Assembly: GCF_021134715.1 (NCBI RefSeq)
Contig: NC_060023.1
Coordinates: forward strand, 2,728,001 to 2,792,000
Origin: Daphnia pulex
Lineage: Eukaryota; Arthropoda; Branchiopoda; Diplostraca; Daphniidae
Direction of reading: 5' to 3'
Length of the DNA: 64,000 nt
Program-made: the position numbers and the translations under genes
The notes under the pieces: generated by a model
The model's input: the letters and a program-made list of their open reading frames with translations, nothing else
Databases searched by the model: none
Told to the model about the DNA's origin: nothing
Part shown: positions 14,762 to 30,714 of the stretch, piece after piece
Layout: each line of letters starts with the position of its first letter
How positions within the stretch are numbered: the first letter of the stretch is position 1

Positions 14762-17700
14762 TCAATTTTCATATGCCGTTCGAAACAAAAATGTTTTTAG
14801 CTTACAACGAAACTGTGTGAGAGAGAAAAGAGGAGAGTAAGGAAAGAGAGCTAGTAAGCGAAGGTCGGGGGGTAAGGAATTCCAAATTCGAGGAGAGGCG
14901 ACTGAGAATGCTCGATCGCCAAAGCTTTTCATGTGGCTGCGAGGGGTGAAGAGTAGGAGCTGGAAGGAGGAGCGGGATTCACGGCCGGTGTCACGGATGC
15001 TGATTAGTGCACTGAGATATTGTGGCGCGAGACCAACTAAGCAACGGAACACTTGGACAGCAATCTTGAACTCGATGCGCTGACACACTGGGAGCCAGTG
15101 CAGGGAGCGGAGAACTGGAGTGATGGATTCACGTCGGCTTACACCCATGATGAGACGAGCTGCTGAGTTTTGGACACGCTGCAACTTCGCCAGGCGAGTT
15201 GCGGGAAGACCAACCAGTAGAGCGTTGCCGTAGTCAATGTGGGACAGAACAAAAGCATGCACGAGCTGTATCACTGCAGGAAGAGAGAGGAATTTCTTTA
15301 TTCTTGCGATTCGCCTGAGGTGAAAGTAGGACGATTTGCATGACGAATTTATCTGTTGCTCCATTGTTAGGTGAGAGTCAAGTAGAACCCCAAGATTTCG
15401 GACCACAGGAGAGGGAATGATGCTAGCGCCACCGACCACGAGAGGAATAGACGCAATGCGTTTCTTCGCTACATTGTCTTTTGAAGAGACTAGGAGAGCA
15501 TCCGTTTTGTCTTCATTCAGTTTAAGGCGGTTGGCAGCCAGCCATTTCCCTTGTTCTACGAGAGACGCTGTAAGGTTATCGAAAACTCGTTGTTGGTCAG
15601 CTGCAGACAGAGATGGGGTGAAAGAATCATATTCTTGGGAATCGTCGGCAAAGTAGTGGTCAGAAATCCCAAAGGACGAAGCTATTTCGTGCATCGGGGA
15701 GTTGTACAGGATGTAGAGTATAGGGCCTAGCACCGAGCCTTGCGGAACACCGTAAATGAGTGGGGTGGGAGATGACGATACGCCATTGACGCTGACCGAC
15801 TGCTGCCTTTTGTCGAGATACGAGGTGAACCAGGTGAGGGCGAGTCCAGAGACACCAAAGCGAGCAGAGAGGCGGTCTAGGAGAATGCCATGGTCGATGG
15901 TGTCAAAGGCTGCGCTTTGATCAAGGAGAGCCAGGATGACAGCGTCGCCGTTGTCAACCGAAGTGAGGAGATCGTTAAGTACCTTAAGAAGGGCAGTTTC
16001 AGTGGAGTGAGCAGCTCTGTACGCTGATTGCACAGAGGCAAAGAGGGACTGAGACTCAAGATAGGCCACAAGCTGTTTAGCGGCGACACGTTCAAGAAGT
16101 TTAGAGAGGAATGAAAGAAGGGACACAGGTCGATAGTTGGAGAGCACATCAGAATCAAGGTCATGTTTTTTCAACAGTGGGGTAATGAGGGCAAGCTTCA
16201 TATCCTGGGGAAACACTCCAGAGGAGAGAGACAAATTAATTATGTTTGCAATTGAGGGAGCCAATGATGGTAGGCACTTCTTTAGAACAAACGTAGGCAA
16301 TGGGTCAAGAGGGGAGGACTTTGATGCACACGACAATATGAGAGACGAAATTTCACAAACTGTTACTGGAGAGAAGGATGAGAAGGCGACGACGGGTTGA
16401 CGTGTCTCCGGTTCCCAGTTTCCAGCAGCAGCGTCAAGGTTCGCTCGGATGGTGTTGATCTTGGAGACAAAGAAGTGGCTAAACTGCTCAACGAGTTCTG
16501 CTAAGGAATCATGAGTGGGTAGCCGCAGACCAGGTTTGACGAGCAGCAGCGAGTCAACGAGCTTGAAGAGGGAGGTCTTCTTCCCACCAGCTTCCAGGAT
16601 CTGAGATTCAAGGAAGGATCTCTTAGCCAGGTTGATCATCTCGTGGAGATTCCGCAGCTCGCCATGCATGATTTGCTTGTCAATTGTCAGGTTTGTCAGC
16701 TTCCAGCGCCTCTCCAGCCTCCTCACTTTTCTTCTAGCCGCATGGATCTCCTCATTGTCCCACGGATTATCTGGGCGAACAGTGAAGCATCTTTTGACCA
16801 TTGGAGCGTGTGAGTCGAGAACACATGCAAGGCCGTTGTTGTACTGCGACAGAGCACTTTCACAGTCCCCAGCTGGGGACGTAAGAAGTGGCAGCTTTAG
16901 CAGGTCAGAGCAGAAGGAAGAAAAGTCGATTGACTTCAGCTTCCTGAACTCTACCTTCTTGACTGGACGCAACGGGCGGTGTGCCTTGGCGCACCAATGG
17001 ATCGCACGATGGTCACTGATGAAGTCGGATGTGGAAAAATCAACTAGAAAGTTTTCCGACGATCTTGATAACACAAGATCGAGAGTGTGGCCACCGACGT
17101 GGCTAGAGTCAGACACATGCTGCTGAAGATCGAATGAGTCGATTAAAGAGAGAAATGACTGGCCCAGTTGACACGATTTGTCGTCTACATGGATGTTAAA
17201 GTCGCCAACTATGAGCAGGAGACCGGGAGAATGAACCAGGAATTCAAGCAGACTTGCAAACTCATCAATAAACTGATTGGGTTTGTGGGAGGGTGGGCGA
17301 TAGATAACGAGAAGCGTGAAGCACGTAGAGTTGGTGGTAAGGGATGCAGCAAGAAACTCGAACGAAATAGCAACGAAGTCTAAGTTAAGTGGACGAACGC
17401 GCACAGTATCGCGAAATATAATTGCAACTCCCCCTCCGCGCTTGCCTATTCTCGGCTTATGAAGTGACGAATAACCAGCCGGGCATAGTTCGCGTAAAAT
17501 ATCGTCTCCACTATCTTCACGAAGCCAGGATTCAGTAATGGCGACTACATCAAGGTTATGACACACGATATGATGTTGAATAATATACATGTTGCACTGA
17601 ATGGATCGAGCATTAACAAGGGCGCATTGTAAAAACTTTTTGACCGTCAAGCCTCTTCTCACCGATTTTCCGCTCCTTCTGCAACGCTTGGTCGGGCTGC

Positions 17701-17908
17701 GTGAGGCAATGCCCAAGGCTCTTACCGTAAACAATAAGCTGAATGGTAGTAGTGGTGGCACTAGTGGAGAATTGCGAGCAGAGAAAAACTGCTCGGCAGA
17801 CAGCTGATTCGAGAAGCCCTGGGGCGACATGCCGGCAGGACGATAAACAAATGGGCACAGAAAGAAGCAGGAATAACTGAGAACGCCGAATGAAGTAACA
17901 CGAGACAC
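14762..17908 (-). CDS. LINE pol protein: endonuclease and reverse transcriptase
   Basis: Uninterrupted 1048-aa frame. Residues about 95-310 form an apurinic-type endonuclease (TESWL early, GDFN near 236, SDH near 299). Residues about 560-830 form the reverse transcriptase: YRPVSLLS, AAFDTIDH near 669, GVPQGSVLGP near 719, and FADD near 753 in place of the usual YADD. The C-terminal part (HIDYGNALL, LQRVQNSAARLI, LHWLPV) matches the CR1/L2/Jockey tail. No RNase H and no zinc knuckle. Because the whole frame is open, the copy could be recent and competent. The first 90 residues are poorly conserved and the true start may lie further in. The FADD variant occurs in some LINEs and need not be inactivating. 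Confidence 0.88.
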   Translation of the reverse strand: MSRVTSFGVLSYSCFFLCPFVYRPAGMSPQGFSNQLSAEQFFSARNSPLVPPLLPFSLLFTVRALGIASRSPTKRCRRSGKSVRRGLTVKKFLQCALVNARSIQCNMYIIQHHIVCHNLDVVAITESWLREDSGDDILRELCPAGYSSLHKPRIGKRGGGVAIIFRDTVRVRPLNLDFVAISFEFLAASLTTNSTCFTLLVIYRPPSHKPNQFIDEFASLLEFLVHSPGLLLIVGDFNIHVDDKSCQLGQSFLSLIDSFDLQQHVSDSSHVGGHTLDLVLSRSSENFLVDFSTSDFISDHRAIHWCAKAHRPLRPVKKVEFRKLKSIDFSSFCSDLLKLPLLTSPAGDCESALSQYNNGLACVLDSHAPMVKRCFTVRPDNPWDNEEIHAARRKVRRLERRWKLTNLTIDKQIMHGELRNLHEMINLAKRSFLESQILEAGGKKTSLFKLVDSLLLVKPGLRLPTHDSLAELVEQFSHFFVSKINTIRANLDAAAGNWEPETRQPVVAFSSFSPVTVCEISSLILSCASKSSPLDPLPTFVLKKCLPSLAPSIANIINLSLSSGVFPQDMKLALITPLLKKHDLDSDVLSNYRPVSLLSFLSKLLERVAAKQLVAYLESQSLFASVQSAYRAAHSTETALLKVLNDLLTSVDNGDAVILALLDQSAAFDTIDHGILLDRLSARFGVSGLALTWFTSYLDKRQQSVSVNGVSSSPTPLIYGVPQGSVLGPILYILYNSPMHEIASSFGISDHYFADDSQEYDSFTPSLSAADQQRVFDNLTASLVEQGKWLAANRLKLNEDKTDALLVSSKDNVAKKRIASIPLVVGGASIIPSPVVRNLGVLLDSHLTMEQQINSSCKSSYFHLRRIARIKKFLSLPAVIQLVHAFVLSHIDYGNALLVGLPATRLAKLQRVQNSAARLIMGVSRRESITPVLRSLHWLPVCQRIEFKIAVQVFRCLVGLAPQYLSALISIRDTGRESRSSFQLLLFTPRSHMKSFGDRAFSVASPRIWNSLPPDLRLLALFPYSPLFSLTQFRCKLKTFLFRTAYEN

Positions 17909-17959
17909 AGTAGAACAATGGCTATTAAACTAACCAAAGTAAACAAAAATGGCACAAAC

Positions 17960-18474: not shown

Positions 18475-20805
18475 TTAATAATACTTCTTTGTGGCTTCAG
18501 TGTAGTAGGTTGGAGCAGCATATGTTGTAGTGTAGTATTTCGGCGCCTCAGTTTGATAGCTCGGAGCCGAGTAATACTTTGGAGCTTCAGTGTAGTAAGT
18601 CGGGGCAGCGTAGGTAGTTGTGTAATACTCAGGGGCCTTGGTGTTGTAGTACGTTGGAGCAGCGTAGGTTGTGGTGTAGTACTCAGGGGCCTTGGTGGTG
18701 TAGTGTCGGAGCAGCGTAGGTTGTGGTGTAGTACTCAGGAGCCTTGGTGGTGTAGTACGTCGGAGCAGCGTAGGTTGTGGTGAAGTACTCAGGGGCCTTG
18801 GTGGTGTAGTACGTAGGAGCAGCGTAGGTTGTGGTGTAGTGCTCTGGAGCCTTGGTGGTGTAGTACGTCGGAGCAGCGTAGGTTGTGGTGTAGTACTCTG
18901 GAGCCTTGGTAGTGTAGTAGGCTGGTGTTGAATAATATTTAGGTGCTTCGGTGCAATAAGTTGGAGCAGCATACGTAGTTGTGTAATACTCGGCGGCCTT
19001 GGTGGTGTAGTAAACTGGCGCTTCGGTGTAGTAGCTTGGAGCGGCGTAAGTTGTGTACACCGGAGCCTCGGTGTAGTAGGTTGGTTCAGCATGATAAGAA
19101 GGAGCAGCCGCGGTGTAGTAAGGTTGGGCTTCGTAATACTTGGCTGCTTCAGTAGTTGTGTAGCTTGGAGCAGCATAATACTTCGGGGCCTCGGTGTAGT
19201 AAGTAGATGCAGCGTATGTTGTTGTGTAGTACTCAGGAGCCTTGGTGGTGTAGTAAACTGGAGTCACAGTGTAGTAGATTGGAGCAGCATAGGTAGTGGT
19301 GTAGTACTCGGCAGCCTTGGTAGTGTAGTAAGTAGGAGCGGCGTAAGTTGTAATGTAGTACTCGGGGGCCTTTGTGGTGTAGTAAACCGGAGCCTCAGTC
19401 TGGTAGTAGCTCGGGGCAGAGTAATACTTTGGAGCCTCGTTGTAGTAGGTGGGACTGGCGTATGTTGTCGTGTAGTAAACTGGAGCTTCAGTGTAGTAAC
19501 TTGGGGCAGCATACGTCGTGGTGTAGTAAGAAGCTGTAGTGCAATACTCGGGAGCCTTGGTGGTGTAGTAAACGGGAGCCTCCGTGTAGTAAGCTGGGGC
19601 AGCATACGTAGTCGTGTAGTACTTGGGGGGGGGGGGGTCGGTGTAGTAAGTAGGTGTTGTGTAGTAAGGCGGTGGCGTGGTGTAGTATTCCTTCGTCGTT
19701 GTTGTTTGGTATCCGCCGTAGGGGAGACTGGAGTAAAACGGGAAAGTTTTTGTTTTCCCCCTATATCTCCCAAACTAATTATTTAATTTCTTTAAAATTT
19801 TGTTTTTATGTATTCCATATTGTAATGAACCCCCCATATTTTTTATATAATTTAATAATGAACCATTTACCCATAAAATACCTTTGAAGTTTCCTCAGAT
19901 TTGTGGGAGGGGCCTATTTTTTGGGGTAATTGAGGACACTGGAGTGGGTGGTAAGGGACGTCCTCCGTTTTCTCTTTTAAATACATTTAAAAAATTTAAA
20001 AAAATTTAAAAAGTGTTCCACTGCATAGACTCTTTGAGTTTATAAATGTTTCAATTTGATTATTTTGGTAATGAAACTTTTTTCTTATATAAACAAAATT
20101 CCTTATGGAGCAGTAGGATATCCTGCGTTGCCAGGTTAGGAAATCAAGCCTCTTTAAAATGCTGTACGCTGATTGGCCCGTAACTGTCCCAAAATAGTCA
20201 AAAACAGCTGTCCCGATTTCCCGATTATGACTCTTTTTTTTTAAAGTTCATACTGTCTAAACTAATCGATCTAAAATTCTAATTTTTGTTTTAAACGATC
20301 AAGAAATGAATCAGCTTCATTTCCATATTAAATTTACATGCCATTAGCGTTTATTTGTTTCTATAAACATAAAATGGCGGAGACAAAAATCTCTAAAAAA
20401 ACCGTTTTTTTAGTTTTGTCAATAACTCATGCAGTTATTGACAAAAATCCACAAAATTTCATGCCTAAGTAGATTATACGTATTTACATAACATACTAAA
20501 TTTTTTTTAAATTTTATTAACATCTAATATTTTTCCCCCCACTGTCCCTTTTGACCCGGTGTCCCGTTTTACTCCAGTCTCCCCTACCCAGGAGACATCG
20601 GTACACCCATGGTCGACCCAGCCATCAACGATAAAACGCCCAACAGCAGCACGACGCAGTAGTTAACTTGACAATCAATAATTTAAACATTAATACTTCA
20701 ATGACAAACATAAAACATAGATAACAAATATAAATGGCAAATTAAAAATTAGAAACAAGGTAGAATTTGGTCACGTCTCGATATAATAAGTACATATTTA
20801 CCCAT
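18475..20805 (-). CDS. Secreted Tyr/Thr/Ala/Pro-rich tandem-repeat protein, frame-broken near its 3' end
   Basis: Exon 1 is only ATG+G (20802-20805), exon 2 20588-20666, exon 3 18475-19727. Exons 1-2 encode a clear signal peptide (MVNYCVVLLLGVLSLMAGS). Exon 3 is about 25 degenerate repeats of the type YYTTKAPEYYTTTYAAPT and YYTEAPKYY; such Tyr-rich repeat proteins are usual in cuticle, eggshell or silk-like matrices. The repeat frame is open from the acceptor at 19727 through a 13-base homopolymer (19625-19637, read as four Pro codons) down to 18703, where two bases are missing relative to every other repeat unit; beyond it the repeat continues in another frame to the stop at 18475-18477. This could be a true truncating mutation or a sequencing slip. 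Intron 2 is a transposon (separate entry). Confidence 0.8.
19721..20584. mobile_element. TA-flanked MITE forming intron 2 of the repeat-protein gene
   Basis: 864-bp element. Both ends read GGGGAGACTGGAGTAAAACG and a few more matching bases, in inverted orientation, and it is flanked by TA on both sides (19719-19720 and 20585-20586), the target duplication of Tc1/mariner-like and related superfamilies. No transposase ORF. On the gene strand the donor GT uses a host G plus the T of the TA duplication, and the acceptor CTCCAG lies within the terminal repeat at 19728-19729, leaving seven element bases in the mRNA. Removing element and duplication gives a continuous host codon frame across the site, so the intron is best explained by the insertion itself. 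Confidence 0.82.
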
Positions 20806-22668: not shown

Positions 22669-24795
22669 CGTCCCTCAAGTTAAGCGCACCCCAAACAAGA
22701 ATATTGGAATTCAAAGGCAAGGAAGAAGAAACGTCCCTCAATGGGTTTGTAAATAAGGATGCAGTTCAAAGGCATTTGAATAATATGAAACTTCATGACA
22801 AATGAGGAAACTTGATCGTCCCTTAATTTAGGCATTCTGAATATTAAGCTCTTGAACACCCAAGTTGTGGCGCAGCATCTCGAATCTCGGAGTCGGCAGG
22901 GCCTTCGTAAAGATGTCGGCTAACTGGAGTTCTGTCTCGATGTAAGTGACATCAATTTTGCCCTCCTGTTGAGCATCGCGTACAAAGAAGAAGCGTACGT
23001 CCATATGTTTTGTGCGTTGATGGAATATTGGGTTGAGAATTAGAGCAATGGCGCCTTGATTGTCGCAACGTAAAGGAACGGTTAGATCGGCACCACCTAG
23101 TTCAGCGTACAGACGTCTTAGCCATATTGCCTCCTTTGTTCCATCAGAGGCTGCGATGAATTCTGATTCTGTGGTGGACAGAGCAACACAGGTTTGGCGA
23201 CGGCTGTGCCAAGAGATGGGACCATTATTGAGGATAAATACTGCTCCAGATGTTGACCGCCTATTCTCCAGATCTCCGGCATAATCCGCGTCGACGTAAC
23301 CACAGAGTTCGTTGCTACCACCACCAAATAAAAGTCCATGGTTGACGGTTTTGCGCAGGTAGGCCAGGATTCTTTTCAGTCCCTTCCAGTGCTCCATGCC
23401 AGGGCTTTGGGAAAAACGTGAAACCTGTCCAACGGCAAATGAGATGTCTGGTCGTGTCAGATTAGCAAGATGCATTAGGAAGCCGACCCCCTCCAAATAA
23501 GGAACATTGATCATTGGGGCTTTTTCTTCTTCAGTGCGAGGGCACATGGATGGCGACAGTTTAACGCAAGGGTCAGCTGGAACGGTGATGGAGCTGCAGT
23601 TTGTCATGCCGAATCTTGCTAGAATGGTTTTCACGTAGTCTGGTTGAGAGAGGTGAATAGTCCGATGAGTGCGGTCGCGTTCGATGTTGACACCAATGAA
23701 TCGGTCTGCTGGAAGAGAGCGTATTTCGAATTCTTTGCCAAGGAATTCAATCATTTTCAGCAGAACTGCATTTTGGTTGCTCAGGATCAGGCCGTCATCT
23801 ACGTACAGGATGAAGAATGTTATTTCCTCATCTGGCTCCCCCGGACGGAGGTGGCGGTAGTAAATGCAGGGATCACATTTAGATCTTTCAAGACCAAAGG
23901 CTACAATGAATTCATTGAATTTTACGTTCCAAACGCGGGAGGCCTGCTTTAAGCCATAGAGGCTTTTGACGAGACGACACACCTCCTCTTCTTTTCCAGG
24001 GATGATGAAACCTTCGGGTTGTTTCATGTAGATTTCTTCTTCCAGTGTTCCATAGAGAAATGCGGTTTTTACATCGAGTTGGATCATTTCAAGATCTTTT
24101 TCTGCTGCAATGGCCATGATCATTCGGAAGGAGAAGGTCTTGGCAACTGGGGCATAAGTCTCGGTGTAGTCGATGCCGTGAATTTGAGAAAATCCTTTGA
24201 TTACAAACCTTGCCTTGTATCGTGGGGAAGTCGTTTTGAAACCGGGCTTGTACTTGCAGATCCATTTGCCTTCGATTGCCTTTCGGTCGGGTGGCAGTCG
24301 GCATAGTGTCCAGGTGTTGTTTTTGATTAGAGAGTTGTATTCTTCATTCATCGCCTCAATCCATAGTTCAGCCTCCGGACAGTTAATTGCCTCACGATAG
24401 GTTTCAGGCTCCGTTGGATTTTGGTTGGCTGCGTCATTAGAAAGAACGGCTTCTTTGGCGACTGACTGGATCTGTCTTTCTCTAATGCGCGTTGACCGGC
24501 GTGGTTGATCGACGCTGTTGGCTTGTGGAACTTCTGCTGCAATTGGAGTGGCATCGTGAGCATCTTGATCTATGATCATTCCAGGTTCCTGAGTAACTTC
24601 GTTGTGAATCAGGGGATCAGTTGGAAGGTTTGACCCTTCGCGAAGTGTTTCGTCTGTGATGAGGGGAATTTCGTCTTCGATTGCAGATACTGGGCAAGCT
24701 TCTTCTTCGTTGGGAGTTTCTACGGTGATTGGGACGTCAGTTTCTCTTGTGTCCATTGATGCTTCTTCGTTGCTTTCAGCGAGCTGTAATTGCTC

Positions 24796-24887
24796 CTTTG
24801 AAGGGAAGAAAGAGAAAAAAAAAATTAATTTACATGAATAATAAGGAGTATGTATATAAGTAGAAATAAAGATATATATATATATTG

Positions 24888-24921
<34 letters not shown>

Positions 24922-25040
24922 GTACTATATGTACAAAACATGGAAACATGTATAGAAATATATATAGCAGTACATATGAATATACATAGAATATATATGT
25001 ATATATGGAAATATAAGAGGAAATATGTATGTGAACGAAC
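24796..25040 (-). other. Intron-like gap in Copia pol between integrase and RT, with TA microsatellite
   Basis: 245 nt, donor AAAG/gttcgt and acceptor cttcaaag/GAG. The upstream segment ends after a Lys codon and the downstream frame begins at Glu in the same phase and stays open into the RT segment. The gap holds TA/TATATG repeats. Confidence 0.65.
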
Positions 25041-27213
25041 CTTTGATGGTAGTAGATCCTTTGCTATATGGTCACGGTAAAGAATGGTTTCATCGATTTT
25101 GACGTCTTTGCTTACGACAATTTTTCCAGTTGTAGGAATGTAGATTCTAGATGCGTTTTGAGTTGAGCAGCGACCGACAAAAAAACCTTCTTGACTACGA
25201 GGTTCTAGTTTTGATGAGACGGTTGGGTTTCTGACAAAAGCTTTTGATCCAAATATCCTGATGTGAGTCATGTCGGGTTTCTTTTCATTCCAGTACTCAT
25301 AGGGGGTGAGTTGGGCAGTTCTTGATAGGACCCGATTCTTTATGTAGGTGGTGTATGAGATGGCTTCTGCCCACAAGCAGGCGGGTAGGCCACTTTCAAT
25401 TATCATACATCGGACTGGTTCTAAGAGGGTCCGGTTGAGACGTTCTGCTGAGCCGTTTTGTTCTGGTGTGTGAGGAGCGCTGGTTTCATGACGAATCCCA
25501 TGTTGGGCGAGCCACTCGGCGTTTTCTTTGTTGAGATATTCTCCTTTGCCATTGTCCGAACGAAGTGTGAGCATGTAGAAGCCGGTTTCGTTTAAGAGAA
25601 GAGCGTGGTAAAGTCGAATCAAGGCCGGAACTTCATTCTTCCTTTTCATGAAGTAGACTGTCGTGTATCCGCTATAGTCGTCCTTGAAGGTGACAAAATA
25701 ACGGGCTCCTCCGATGCTTGTGGTGGCAATGGGACCCCATACGTCTGAGTGGGTCAGTTCACCGATCCTTGTTGCTCTGTTCCTTCCCGTTTTCAGAGGT
25801 ATTCTGGAAAATTTGCCAAGCTCGCAGTTGGAACAGAGTGTCGCTGGGATGTCACGGTCGCCATTGATGTTTAATCCAATGGTCAGATCTTCTTTTACCA
25901 TCTTCAGGAGTGTGTGGTAGCCTAAGTGACCTAAGCGGCGATGCCACGTGATGATTGATGCTCGAAGATCTGCTCCAAGCGCGACGAGAGTGAGAGGTTG
26001 GATGTTGTCACTCTGGGTCGAATGAATGTCATTTTTTGTTTCTCCCCGGTGAGGACTGTTTCGCCGTTTCTCTTAAAGAGAACCTGGGGAAAGATAAAAA
26101 AAAAATTGTGAATGGTTTGTTTTGTAACTGGTTCTGAGGATAATATGATACCTTGTTATCGTCAAATGTGACTATTAGACCATTGGCAGTTGCTGCACTC
26201 ACGGAGAAGAGGTTTGAGCCAAGTCCAGGGACATATAGAACTTCCGTTAATGTCTTGGATGTTGTTGTCTGATCAACTTCTACAATAACGTCAATGTTGC
26301 CGACGCCTAGAGCGTCCAGTTCAGAGTCTCCGATGCCTGGGATGAGAGAGAAAAGGTTTGAGATGAGAAGTTCGTTCCTTTTGGCCAAAAAAAACTTGAT
26401 TATTTACCTTTAACAGACCAAGTGCCGGCTTTGATTGGTTTGAAGGTTGTGAAAAAGCTTCTTTGGTCACTCATGTGTTTGGAAGCACCTGAGTCCACGA
26501 GGAATGTCAGTATACTTCTCGGATCCAGATTTGATAAAGACAGTAGGGCGTTGGATGAATTGGATGGGTTGCCCCCACCTCTGCCTCTACCTCGTCCTCT
26601 TTTCGTGGTGTTCCAGTTTGGGGGGTAGCCGTGTTTTTGGAAACAGACCTTTTCTTCATGGGTTGGGCTGTTGCAGTGGCCACTGGTGGGTTGAGTTAAA
26701 TCTTTGGCGGCTGGTGAATGCAGCTTCATTGTTGTGTTCCGTTTTTGTTTGGTAAGACTTCAGAACGCTTTCTTCAGTTATGAGTCGCTGCAGTAGATGA
26801 TCAAGAGTCCGGTCATTCGCTGGGAGACTGGTCCAAACAGTCCTGACGATTCGGAAGTTTTCCGGAAGTGTTGCAAGGGCCTTGGAGACAAGTTGGACTT
26901 CAGGCATCGTCTCCTGTTAAGGAGAGAAACTTGATCAGTAGGGAAAAAAATGAATGATATAAGAAAAGGTACCAGCTGTATGTTTGAAGTCGTAGTATTG
27001 TTGCCATAGAAGATGCAGCTGTTCTTCGGTTTGGAGCTGATATTGTAGATTTAACTTCGCCCATATTTGTGCCGCATTGAGGCCAGGAGTGTATAAGTTT
27101 TCTTTCATTTTTTTCGTAATCGAGGCAAATATGAAGTTAATAGCGGTGATGTTTTTCCTCGTCCATAGCCTTATGGCTGCATCATTCAGCAATTCACCAG
27201 CTTCATTTCGATC

Positions 27214-28015: not shown

Positions 28016-28277
28016 TGTTGAGTTTTGTGACTGAACATTAGACTACGAGCGTGATTTGACAAGATATTGTATTACAGATACCATGGATGACACAGAATAT
28101 AATTTAGATAAGTCTTACCCTATGGCCGGTTCTTAAGAGAGTGAAGGGACTGTCACATGGACAGGTAGCAGACGTCAACTATATCTTCCATGAGACATCT
28201 AACGGGAATGGGGTTAAGCAACACTAAGGTTAAGCAACACCACTTGGGTGCGCTTGAGTTGGAAGGAAATCACAACA
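28016..28277 (-). repeat. 5' LTR of the Copia element
   Basis: 262 bp, partner of 22407-22668; the primer-binding site lies at about 28002-28015. Confidence 0.92.
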
Positions 28278-30580
28278 ACATCTTCGGTCACCTCCGCAGC
28301 ACAGCCAGATGCATGGAGGACCTCATCATCTACTCCGCCACGTACGAAGAGCACTTAGAGTTAGTCCGCGCAGTTTTCAAGACGGCCAGCGACCACAACG
28401 TCGGCTTCAACCGCGCCAAGACGACCTTTGCAGAGCCGACCGGCTTGTTTGCCGGCTACGTAGTGTCGGAAGATGGCTTTCGCCCAAGCCCAGATTTGAC
28501 GCGTGCCATCAGAGAATTCCTACAGCCACGGAACGTCACCGACCTTCTGTCATTCTATGGGCTGTGCCAGCAGGTCGGTAACTTCAGCAGCAAAATAGCA
28601 GCAGCACTAGCCCCCCTCTCTCCACTGCTAAAGAAAAACGTGGAATGGAGCTGGAACGCGCAAGAAGAGACAGCTTTCCAGACCGCAAGAAAAGAACTGG
28701 CGCAGGTACAAGAGCTCGCGTTCTACAACCCAGACCGCACCACGTCGATGCATCCCGCCTTCACGGCCTAGGTTTCATCCTAAAGCAACAAGACCCAGCG
28801 ACCAGCAAGTGGCAACTAGTCCAAGCCGGATCCCGGTTCCTTTCGTCGGCCGAGTCCAGGTATGCGATGATAGAACTGGAATGCCTGGCGGCCGCGTGGG
28901 CCATGAAGAAATACAGACCATTCCTCGAAGGACTACCGGCGTTCGACCTCATCACAGACCACCGGCCGCTGATCCCAATTCTCAACGAATATTCACTGGA
29001 CAAACTAGACAACCCGCGACTTCTTCGCCTCCGCCTCCAAATGACCCGCTTCATATCTACAGCAAAATGGGTCCCAGGCAAGATCAACGTCGAAGCAGAC
29101 GCACTCTCAAGAGCGTCAGTCGAACGCGCATATGAAGCAGACGAGCTAGCAGAAGGACCCAGCACCTTCCGAGCAAAAGGCGCGTTAACCGGACTCATAG
29201 CCGGATCACCCAACCAGTCACCCGACCTGAACCTGAAAGCTATCCAGTTGGCAGCAGATGCCGATCCCGTCATGACGTCCCTCCGCGAGACAATCATTGC
29301 CGGATTCCCGAACGACAAGTGCAACTTGCCGGAGCAGCTGCGCCCATTCTGGAACGCCCGCCACCAGCTGGCCATCGACGAGGACGACGAAACAATTGTA
29401 ATGGGCCCCCGCGTAGTAATATCTCGCTCCATGGTCCGCCAAACAATCCAAGTCCTGCTAGGTATGCACCAAGGAGCCAGCAAGATGCGCCAGAGGGCCC
29501 GTTTATCCGTATTCTGGCCAGGGATGGATGTCGACATAGCCAACGCGGCAGCCGCCTGCGACTCATGCAACAGCCGGCTAGCGTCCCAACCCAAAGAAAC
29601 CATCCGCCAACACGAACCAGCCACGCGCCCCTTCGAACTCTTACACGCAGATCTGGGAGAAGGCAACGGGTGGCATTTTTTAGTCATCGTGGATCAATTC
29701 AGTGGGTGGCCCCACTTCACCATGTTCCCAAACAAGAACACCACGGCACGACGTCTCATCGACGAATTCCGCAGCTTCTTCGTCTCAATTGGAGGCGGTC
29801 CAATCAAAATCTGGTCCGACAACGGACTCTTCCCCGCGGCCGAGTTCCAAGACTTCCTGCGTGATTGGAAGGTCGGATGGGAGTCATCATCACCGCATTA
29901 CCCGCAATCCAACGGCAGAGCCGAAGCAGGAATCAAGGCCATCAAAGCCCTCGTGGCCGGATCACGAACGGGCAAACGCACCCCGCATGAGCCTCCAGTC
30001 GCCCGCCCAACTAATCTTCAACCGACCCATCCGCGACGGTTTACCGGCGCACAGGAGATCCTTCGCGTCAGAATGGCAAAAGGAGGCCAGAGAAATCGAG
30101 CAGAGTCAACGAAAAATGCTGGAGAAGACGACCAACTACTACAACCGCGACGCAAAGGATTTCCCGGAATTGACCATTGGCGACTACGTACTCATCCAAC
30201 ATCCAGATTCCAAGCGATGGACTACACCAGGAGTGGTGGTGGAAACTGGCCTAAACCGGGATTACATGGTCAAAACACCATCCGGCCGAATTTTTCGGCG
30301 AAATCGCCGTATGCTCCGCAAAAGAACGGTGGTAATGCCGGGGACGATTCCACCAGCCAAAAACGAACCAGTAGCAGCAGTGGAACCAATTCGACCAATC
30401 CCCCCCATCGAAAGAGCAGCGCCGACCACAACACAGCCGGAGAAGAGAACGGACGGGCAACCTGGCCAGCAAGTTGGAGTCGGGCGCGGCCAAGGACGCG
30501 GCCGGATTCCGCCTATACGCCAGTCAACCCGCATCAGCGTGCCAAGTAACCGATACCCGGCAGAAGAGTGGACCAAATAA
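28278..30580 (+). pseudogene. Ty3/Gypsy pol, right part: RT end, RNase H, integrase
   Basis: Continues the RT frame at 28283 (MEDLIIYSATYEEHLELV) into the RT thumb, then breaks between about 28715 and 28755 just before the RNase H Asp motif (DASRLHGLGF). RNase H, an H-C-C zinc region (LLGMHQGASKM..WPGMD..CDSCNS) and the integrase core follow: first Asp in LLHADLG, SDNG, and Glu in QSNGRAEAG. A second break near 29960-29990, with missing residues, precedes the C-terminal part (SPAQLIFNRPIRD, GDYVLIQHP, IRQSTRI), which stops at 30580. The two breaks and the Copia insertion make it non-functional. The 3' LTR follows after a polypurine tract. Confidence 0.85.
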
Positions 30581-30714
30581 CAAAACAAGAATCCAATCCA
30601 ACCAAACCAGAATCACCATACCATGTTTATGTTTCACCATTCAGTAAATTGTTTTTTTTTCTCATTGTATTAAGCGCCAATCCCTCCCCAGAAGTACCCG
30701 AAGGGACGCGCCTT

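Follow-up and report, generated by a model that had tools for sequence, protein, structure and literature searches.

We find that the insertion splitting a coding exon in the window, the whole 64,000-nt stretch of Daphnia pulex DNA analyzed here (C7:2728001-2792000), belongs to a family of short DNA transposons whose target preference and inverted ends leave it ready to serve as an intron, at least on paper. Judged by dinucleotides and their position only, a splice donor and a splice acceptor are present on at least one strand in 48/52 copies and on both strands in 23/52; this combination is what is new here, the class of mechanism being known. For the gene in the window, we put at a little short of even the chance that an ISL2EU-like, GTAC-preferring and intron-ready element is at least partly spliced out of the transcript, and we rate splicing slightly above the simple inactivation of a dispensable duplicate. 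We infer that the spliceosome uses these predicted sites and that a protein product is still being made from this gene.

The element is a non-autonomous, MITE-like DNA transposon of 864 bp (19721..20584, no strand assigned) with 23-bp perfect terminal inverted repeats (TIRs), flanked by a TA target-site duplication (TSD; copy 1, 19719..19720; copy 2, 20585..20586) that is a single TA in the empty paralogues. The sequence-only reading had described an 864-bp element with more than 20 bp of perfect inverted termini and TA on each side, splitting a coding exon, and all of these features were confirmed. The TIR starts with GG (GGGGAGACTGG...), and the outermost 18 bp of both inverted ends read, on the outgoing strand, TTTTACTCCAG/TCTCCCC, a pyrimidine-rich acceptor (slashes mark splice or duplication boundaries). 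In the window, an 18-base TIR-plus-TA motif with at most three mismatches occurs at two places, which are the two ends of the element, against 0.02 expected from shuffles. Genome searches covered 133.19 Mb in the 13 contigs of one assembly and, when up to two mismatches were allowed, returned 147 termini, against 0 with the reversed control, as well as at least 39 near-full-length copies, that of the window included, which are 88–100% identical to the window element among the best 40 of 151 candidates. Several subfamilies have nearest-neighbor divergences of 0.000–0.008 across 46 aligned full copies, and on these distances the family is young and the product of a recent burst. The window copy lies 0.043 from its nearest relative, L021, and 0.061 from the majority, and three further copies (L072, L073 and L076) form a diverged subfamily that is ~74–77% identical over the aligned parts.

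A relative of 5.85 kb at C2:7551881-7557733, whose right end is exact and whose left end has two mismatches in 18 (one in the TA), matches the Pfam families DDE_Tnp_4 (1.5e-17 and 7.6e-20, in two frames), HTH_Tnp_4 (8.5e-16) and, on the strand opposite to the transposase, YqaJ (2.3e-8). The window element has the features of a MITE, being short and non-coding, with TIRs, a TSD, many similar copies and a coding relative with matching ends, and it was presumably mobilized by this relative. As described in PMC4482050, ISL2EU transposons encode a DDE/HTH transposase with a THAP domain and a second gene, YqaJ, have TIRs usually starting with GG, average ~4.84 kb, occur in animal hosts only and duplicate AT in A/AT/T. 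The GG-starting TIRs, the DDE/HTH relative with its YqaJ gene and the animal host are shared with that description, pointing to an ISL2EU-like DNA transposon (PHIS superfamily) of which the window element is a non-autonomous copy. The target differs, being TA in G/TA/C and not AT in A/AT/T, and we therefore use the term "ISL2EU-like" instead of filing the family as a member of ISL2EU. No THAP domain was detected in the fragments examined: the gene is in pieces, and a 123-aa frame lying upstream of the transposase frames had no Pfam match. Tc1/mariner, considered for the TA duplication, was dropped given the DDE_Tnp_4/YqaJ relative. Within the genus, ISL2EU holds the most full-length DNA transposons of D. 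pulex PA42 (50 of 112; PMC5427498) and is one of the clades for which gains are recorded in D. magna (one event; PMC8594854).

The host is a tyrosine-rich secreted-repeat gene on the minus strand, without a matching family in Pfam, and the element splits its exon 2. The predicted coding part of exon 1 (20802..20805, minus strand) is ATGG followed by a GTAAAT donor, in a region closely matched in paralogue L010, and an intron of 135 nt separates it from exon 2, which starts at 20666. The 5′ part of exon 2 (20588..20666, minus strand, 79 bp) is a signal-peptide-like region as judged by eye; the 3′ part (18683..19727, minus strand) encodes the tyrosine-rich repeats. Owing to a 2-nt deletion near 18706, which shifts the frame, the reading ends at a premature TGA (18685-18683) and not at the native TAA (18477-18475), leaving the last part of the native coding sequence (18475..18682, minus strand) out of frame.

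A homology search of the contigs revealed many relatives of this gene. The closest, L010 (C7:2407754-2408077), has 97% protein identity over the query and an uninterrupted exon, and a text-pattern scan of nine paralogue loci found the exon uninterrupted in seven (L010, L012, L013, L014, L015, L018 and L019, of which L013 and L014 overlap), while the pattern failed to match L016 and L017. The empty site reads CCTGAGTACGGCGG in L010 and CCTGGGTACGGCGG in L012, the latter being the target inferred for the window gene; L013, L014 and L015 have other bases at the GTAC. Because these sites are uninterrupted, these seven relatives are intron-free at this position and the insertion duplicated the TA within a GTAC, which supports the earlier proposal of a TA-duplicating DNA transposon that entered a coding exon and brought a potential 3′ splice site with it. 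Relatives of the tyrosine-rich gene often come as inverted pairs of equal score, ~1–11 kb apart in three examples (C9:1416558(+)/1425319(-), C7:11029613(+)/11040825(-) and C1:4614437(-)/4615603(+)), as if the family often lay in near-perfect palindromes, although a larger repeat with such arms, or the assembly, could also produce this pattern.

The predicted intron spans 860 nt (19728..20587, minus strand). Its donor, ...CCTGG/GTAGGG on the gene strand with 20588 as the last exon base, takes its GT from host base 20587 and the T of the TA, and its acceptor, ...TTTTACTCCAG/TCTCCCC, has its AG within the terminal repeat, with 19727 as the first exon base and the exon side continuing as TCTCCCCTACGG. 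This junction (20588/19727) is the one first read from the sequence, with a donor of host G plus the T of the duplicated TA and an acceptor inside the TIR. The predicted spliced reading, ...PMSPG-LP-YGGYQ..., loses one host base (G) and gains seven element bases (TCTCCCC). The accompanying claim that two codons (Leu-Pro) are added and the downstream frame is kept holds for ~340 codons, but not beyond the 2-nt deletion, which that reading does not mention. Across 632 contexts that varied in sequence and phase and had no stop beforehand, the predicted +6-nt scar creates 0 new stops.

Several features weigh against splicing here. The usual donor consensus has A at +4 and T at +6, and GTAGGG, which has neither, is an imperfect donor. 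Within the last 80 nt of the predicted intron, a single strict yUnAy branch-site match was found, at −7. The genome was also searched for a spliced copy of this junction, allowing up to three mismatches, and none was found. At 860 nt, the predicted intron would be ~12 times as long as a typical D. pulex intron (median 63–77 nt; PMC5427498).

To place the window copy in its family, 60 loci were fetched by place among the termini listed, and 52 of these gave two ends; L059, L068, L069, L070, L071, L075, L078 and L079 gave no two ends under the limits of the script and were left out, while L037 and L043 (damaged left ends) and the diverged L072, L073 and L076 stay in the 52-copy denominators. TA is present on both sides in 50/52 copies, the other two being those with damaged left ends. 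The target is GTAC at 23/52 copies, compared to 3.0% of 8314 TA contexts in their flanks, with G preceding the TA in 36/52 and C following it in 35/52. Counted by strand-side, a GT donor is present on 71/104 and an intact AG on 103/104, and the exact 20-mer end TTTTACTCCAGTCTCCCCTA on 78/104; as background, ~34% of TA sites, summed from the flank TA table, would yield a donor on at least one strand. As read from these copies, the intron-ready anatomy is a rule that follows from the site preference of the family, beyond one lucky insertion. A GTAC preference that is a side effect of target choice by the transposase is a simpler explanation than selection for splicing.

The mechanism that we propose is as follows. 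An ISL2EU-like element entered exon 2 in one duplicate of the tyrosine-rich repeat gene, duplicating the TA. Since a GTAC target places a G ahead of the TA on either strand, insertion creates G/TAGGGG, a GT donor, and with this donor and the acceptor carried by each inverted end, removal as an intron would be possible at GTAC sites in either orientation. Splicing at these sites would leave a scar of +6 nt that keeps the frame and makes no stop, and in the window gene the element would be at least partly spliced, giving PG-LP-YGG. A broader version holds that the family is a two-way introner, in which GTAC donors and inverted-end acceptors on both strands would make an exonic insertion an intron either way round, with a +6-nt scar free of frameshift or stop, and in which a still-active family would be providing an animal genome with new introns or with 3′ splice sites that are portable. 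We consider this extension unlikely, though not far-fetched.

We also examined other copies in or near genes. Open frames of at least 100 aa run across 13/52 empty sites, compared to 27% of 623 control TA positions taken from single flanks (~1.2 kb at most loci), which are shorter than the joined empty sites. There is no excess of open frames at insertion sites in this comparison, and hence no sign of exon targeting. Inspection of the 18 longest frames of the 52 copies identified five as host-like (L020, L029, L039, L063 and L073), four of them with a sense-strand GT; a donor in 4/5 host-like exonic cases, the window copy included, is too small a sample to differ from the base rate of 71/104. 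The copy at L063 (1201-2071; C5:5469817-5470687) is young, 0.007 from its nearest relative, and sits, one base inside an exon and right after the host acceptor, in a gene that Pfam (4e-20 and 3.6e-15) assigns to AMP-binding enzymes. Joining the element acceptor to the host donor would keep the frame there, with a predicted change of V to SPL, and the match to a 95–96% identical paralogue is split at the site by a 44-nt gap, as expected of a host intron.

At L073 (C3:5749886-5750706), in the diverged subfamily, three relatives of the frame (78–84%), all from that contig, run through the site, and a sense-strand G provides the donor. L029 (C12:2667163-2668032) also has the sense-strand G, its one relative is at 68% with three stops, and its frame has no Pfam and no solved-structure match, so that it may be counted as a host-like exon only tentatively. 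L039 has a possible coding frame, whose best other relative is at 54% with stops, and lacks the sense-strand GT. No Pfam match was obtained for the frames of L029, L039, L073, L062, L057, L038, L026, L066 or L065. Three further candidates were rejected: the 576-aa frame at L021 looks by eye like a Gypsy-type polymerase, making this a transposon within a transposon (the sense-strand base ahead of its TA is T), that at L038 has 17 uninterrupted relatives elsewhere (86–98%) and is a repeat, and that at L062 matches its own locus only.

The strongest alternative for the window gene is a plain gene-breaking insertion into a dispensable duplicate, with little or no splicing and with splice-like ends that are coincidental. 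If the element is retained, the reading meets an immediate in-frame TAG made by the insertion, and the peptide ends after 28 residues. The same copy carries the 2-nt deletion that shifts its last part, and its dN/dS against L010 is near neutral at 0.86 (7 synonymous and 19 non-synonymous changes over the first 250 window-copy codons, gaps left out). This copy thus shows signs of relaxed constraint and may already be decaying, and the deletion, the dN/dS and the TAG on retention together make inactivation a live rival, one that the many related genes and the lack of excess open frames at insertion sites also favor. Against it, the ~340 codons downstream are still open, and a poly-C tract within them (19625-19637, 13 C on the gene strand) has gained 6 nt relative to L010 in frame, adding two prolines; the upstream region and exon 1 also closely match L010. 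Moreover, L010 too has repeat-breaking changes, and the dN/dS is therefore not specific to the window copy, as both duplicates look relaxed. On balance, we regard gene breakage as a real possibility, but one that we lean against.

Splicing could also use other sites, either joining the exon-1 donor to the terminal-repeat acceptor, such that the signal-peptide exon is skipped, or starting at an internal donor, GGA/GTAAAA, which is present in the TIR of the window copy. The 79-bp length of the first part of exon 2 and the GTAAAT donor of exon 1 would suit skipping, and at L063 the corresponding joint of host donor and element acceptor would keep the frame. In the window gene, however, skipping would shift the frame and cost the signal peptide, and with the internal donor a TAG stays in frame (this donor gives a stop in 120/632 contexts), so that both would yield null proteins, and we judge such splicing improbable. 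It is very improbable that the insertion is a low-frequency or somatic allele, or an artefact of the assembly, with no consequence for gene structure: the search covered one assembly and the identical copies within subfamilies suggest that polymorphism is likely, but the exact TA duplication, the intact ends and a divergence of 4.3% from the nearest relative and 6.1% from the majority fit a real insertion.

At least partial splicing at the predicted sites remains our preferred reading, and it has precedents of several kinds. Insertions of maize Ds/dSpm and C. elegans Tc1 into exons are partly removed by the spliceosome, with splicing that was measured and is often imprecise. The window element shares with them an exonic transposon insertion; unlike them, it would leave a precise in-frame scar, here on paper only. 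Closer in design are the introners of PMC9860276, which carry a 3′ splice site and obtain the 5′ site from the target duplication, whereas others add codons (Aureococcus, legend of Fig. 2F-G). Our family is like introners in its DNA-transposon ends, the acceptor inside the element and the donor drawn from host bases or the duplicated target, but unlike them in its 2-bp TA TSD within a GTAC target, its length of 864 bp, splicing that is predicted only and the absence of a coding-frame excess. A 3.1-kb insert described in work on pink bollworm cadherin, ~90 bp of which resemble ISL2EU, is not a parallel.

The sequence-only reading had also invoked frequent intron gain in Daphnia. Such gain is published (PMC4202315, PMC5427498), but the 90 new D. 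pulex introns of PMC4202315 average 77.7 bp, and direct repeats and double-strand breaks are stressed there, not 860-bp transposons. The window insertion resembles recently gained D. pulex introns in being a recent insertion into a coding exon of the same species (PMC4202315, PMC5427498). It differs in its predicted 860 nt, compared to ~72–78 bp (medians 72–76 bp) for gained introns that were checked by cDNA or RNA-seq/EST, and the parts of these two reports available to us describe no transposon source. Titles and abstracts on introners, Daphnia intron gain, transposons and ISL2EU contained no description of this element family as introns, with most subscription journals outside the scope of that search.

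The origin of introns is a long-standing question for which Daphnia is a main animal model. Among animals and land plants, PMC9860276 has introners in two groups only, both of them animals, and its main text names Daphnia in the reference list only. If copies are spliced, a single young family would offer natural replicates of the step from transposon to intron, as its copies are recent and near-identical and lie in both orientations, in exons and outside them. An ISL2EU-like element with a G/TA/C target is of modest separate interest.

Several minor observations were made along the way. An element copy at L077 (1201-3457; C8:7436165-7438421) has grown to 2.26 kb by inserted DNA, and its left flank, outside the element, contains a frame that by eye is reverse-transcriptase-like. 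A 1653-bp copy at L064 (1201-2853; C7:4572879-4574531) consists of two element-matching parts with ~770 bp of other DNA between them and is probably a nested insertion. In the window itself, a 1055-aa frame on the minus strand (14762-17929) resembles by eye the protein of a non-LTR retrotransposon, including an endonuclease and a reverse transcriptase part, and frames at 22828-26759 (minus strand) and 28169-30612 (plus strand) resemble, also by eye, pieces of retrotransposon polyproteins.
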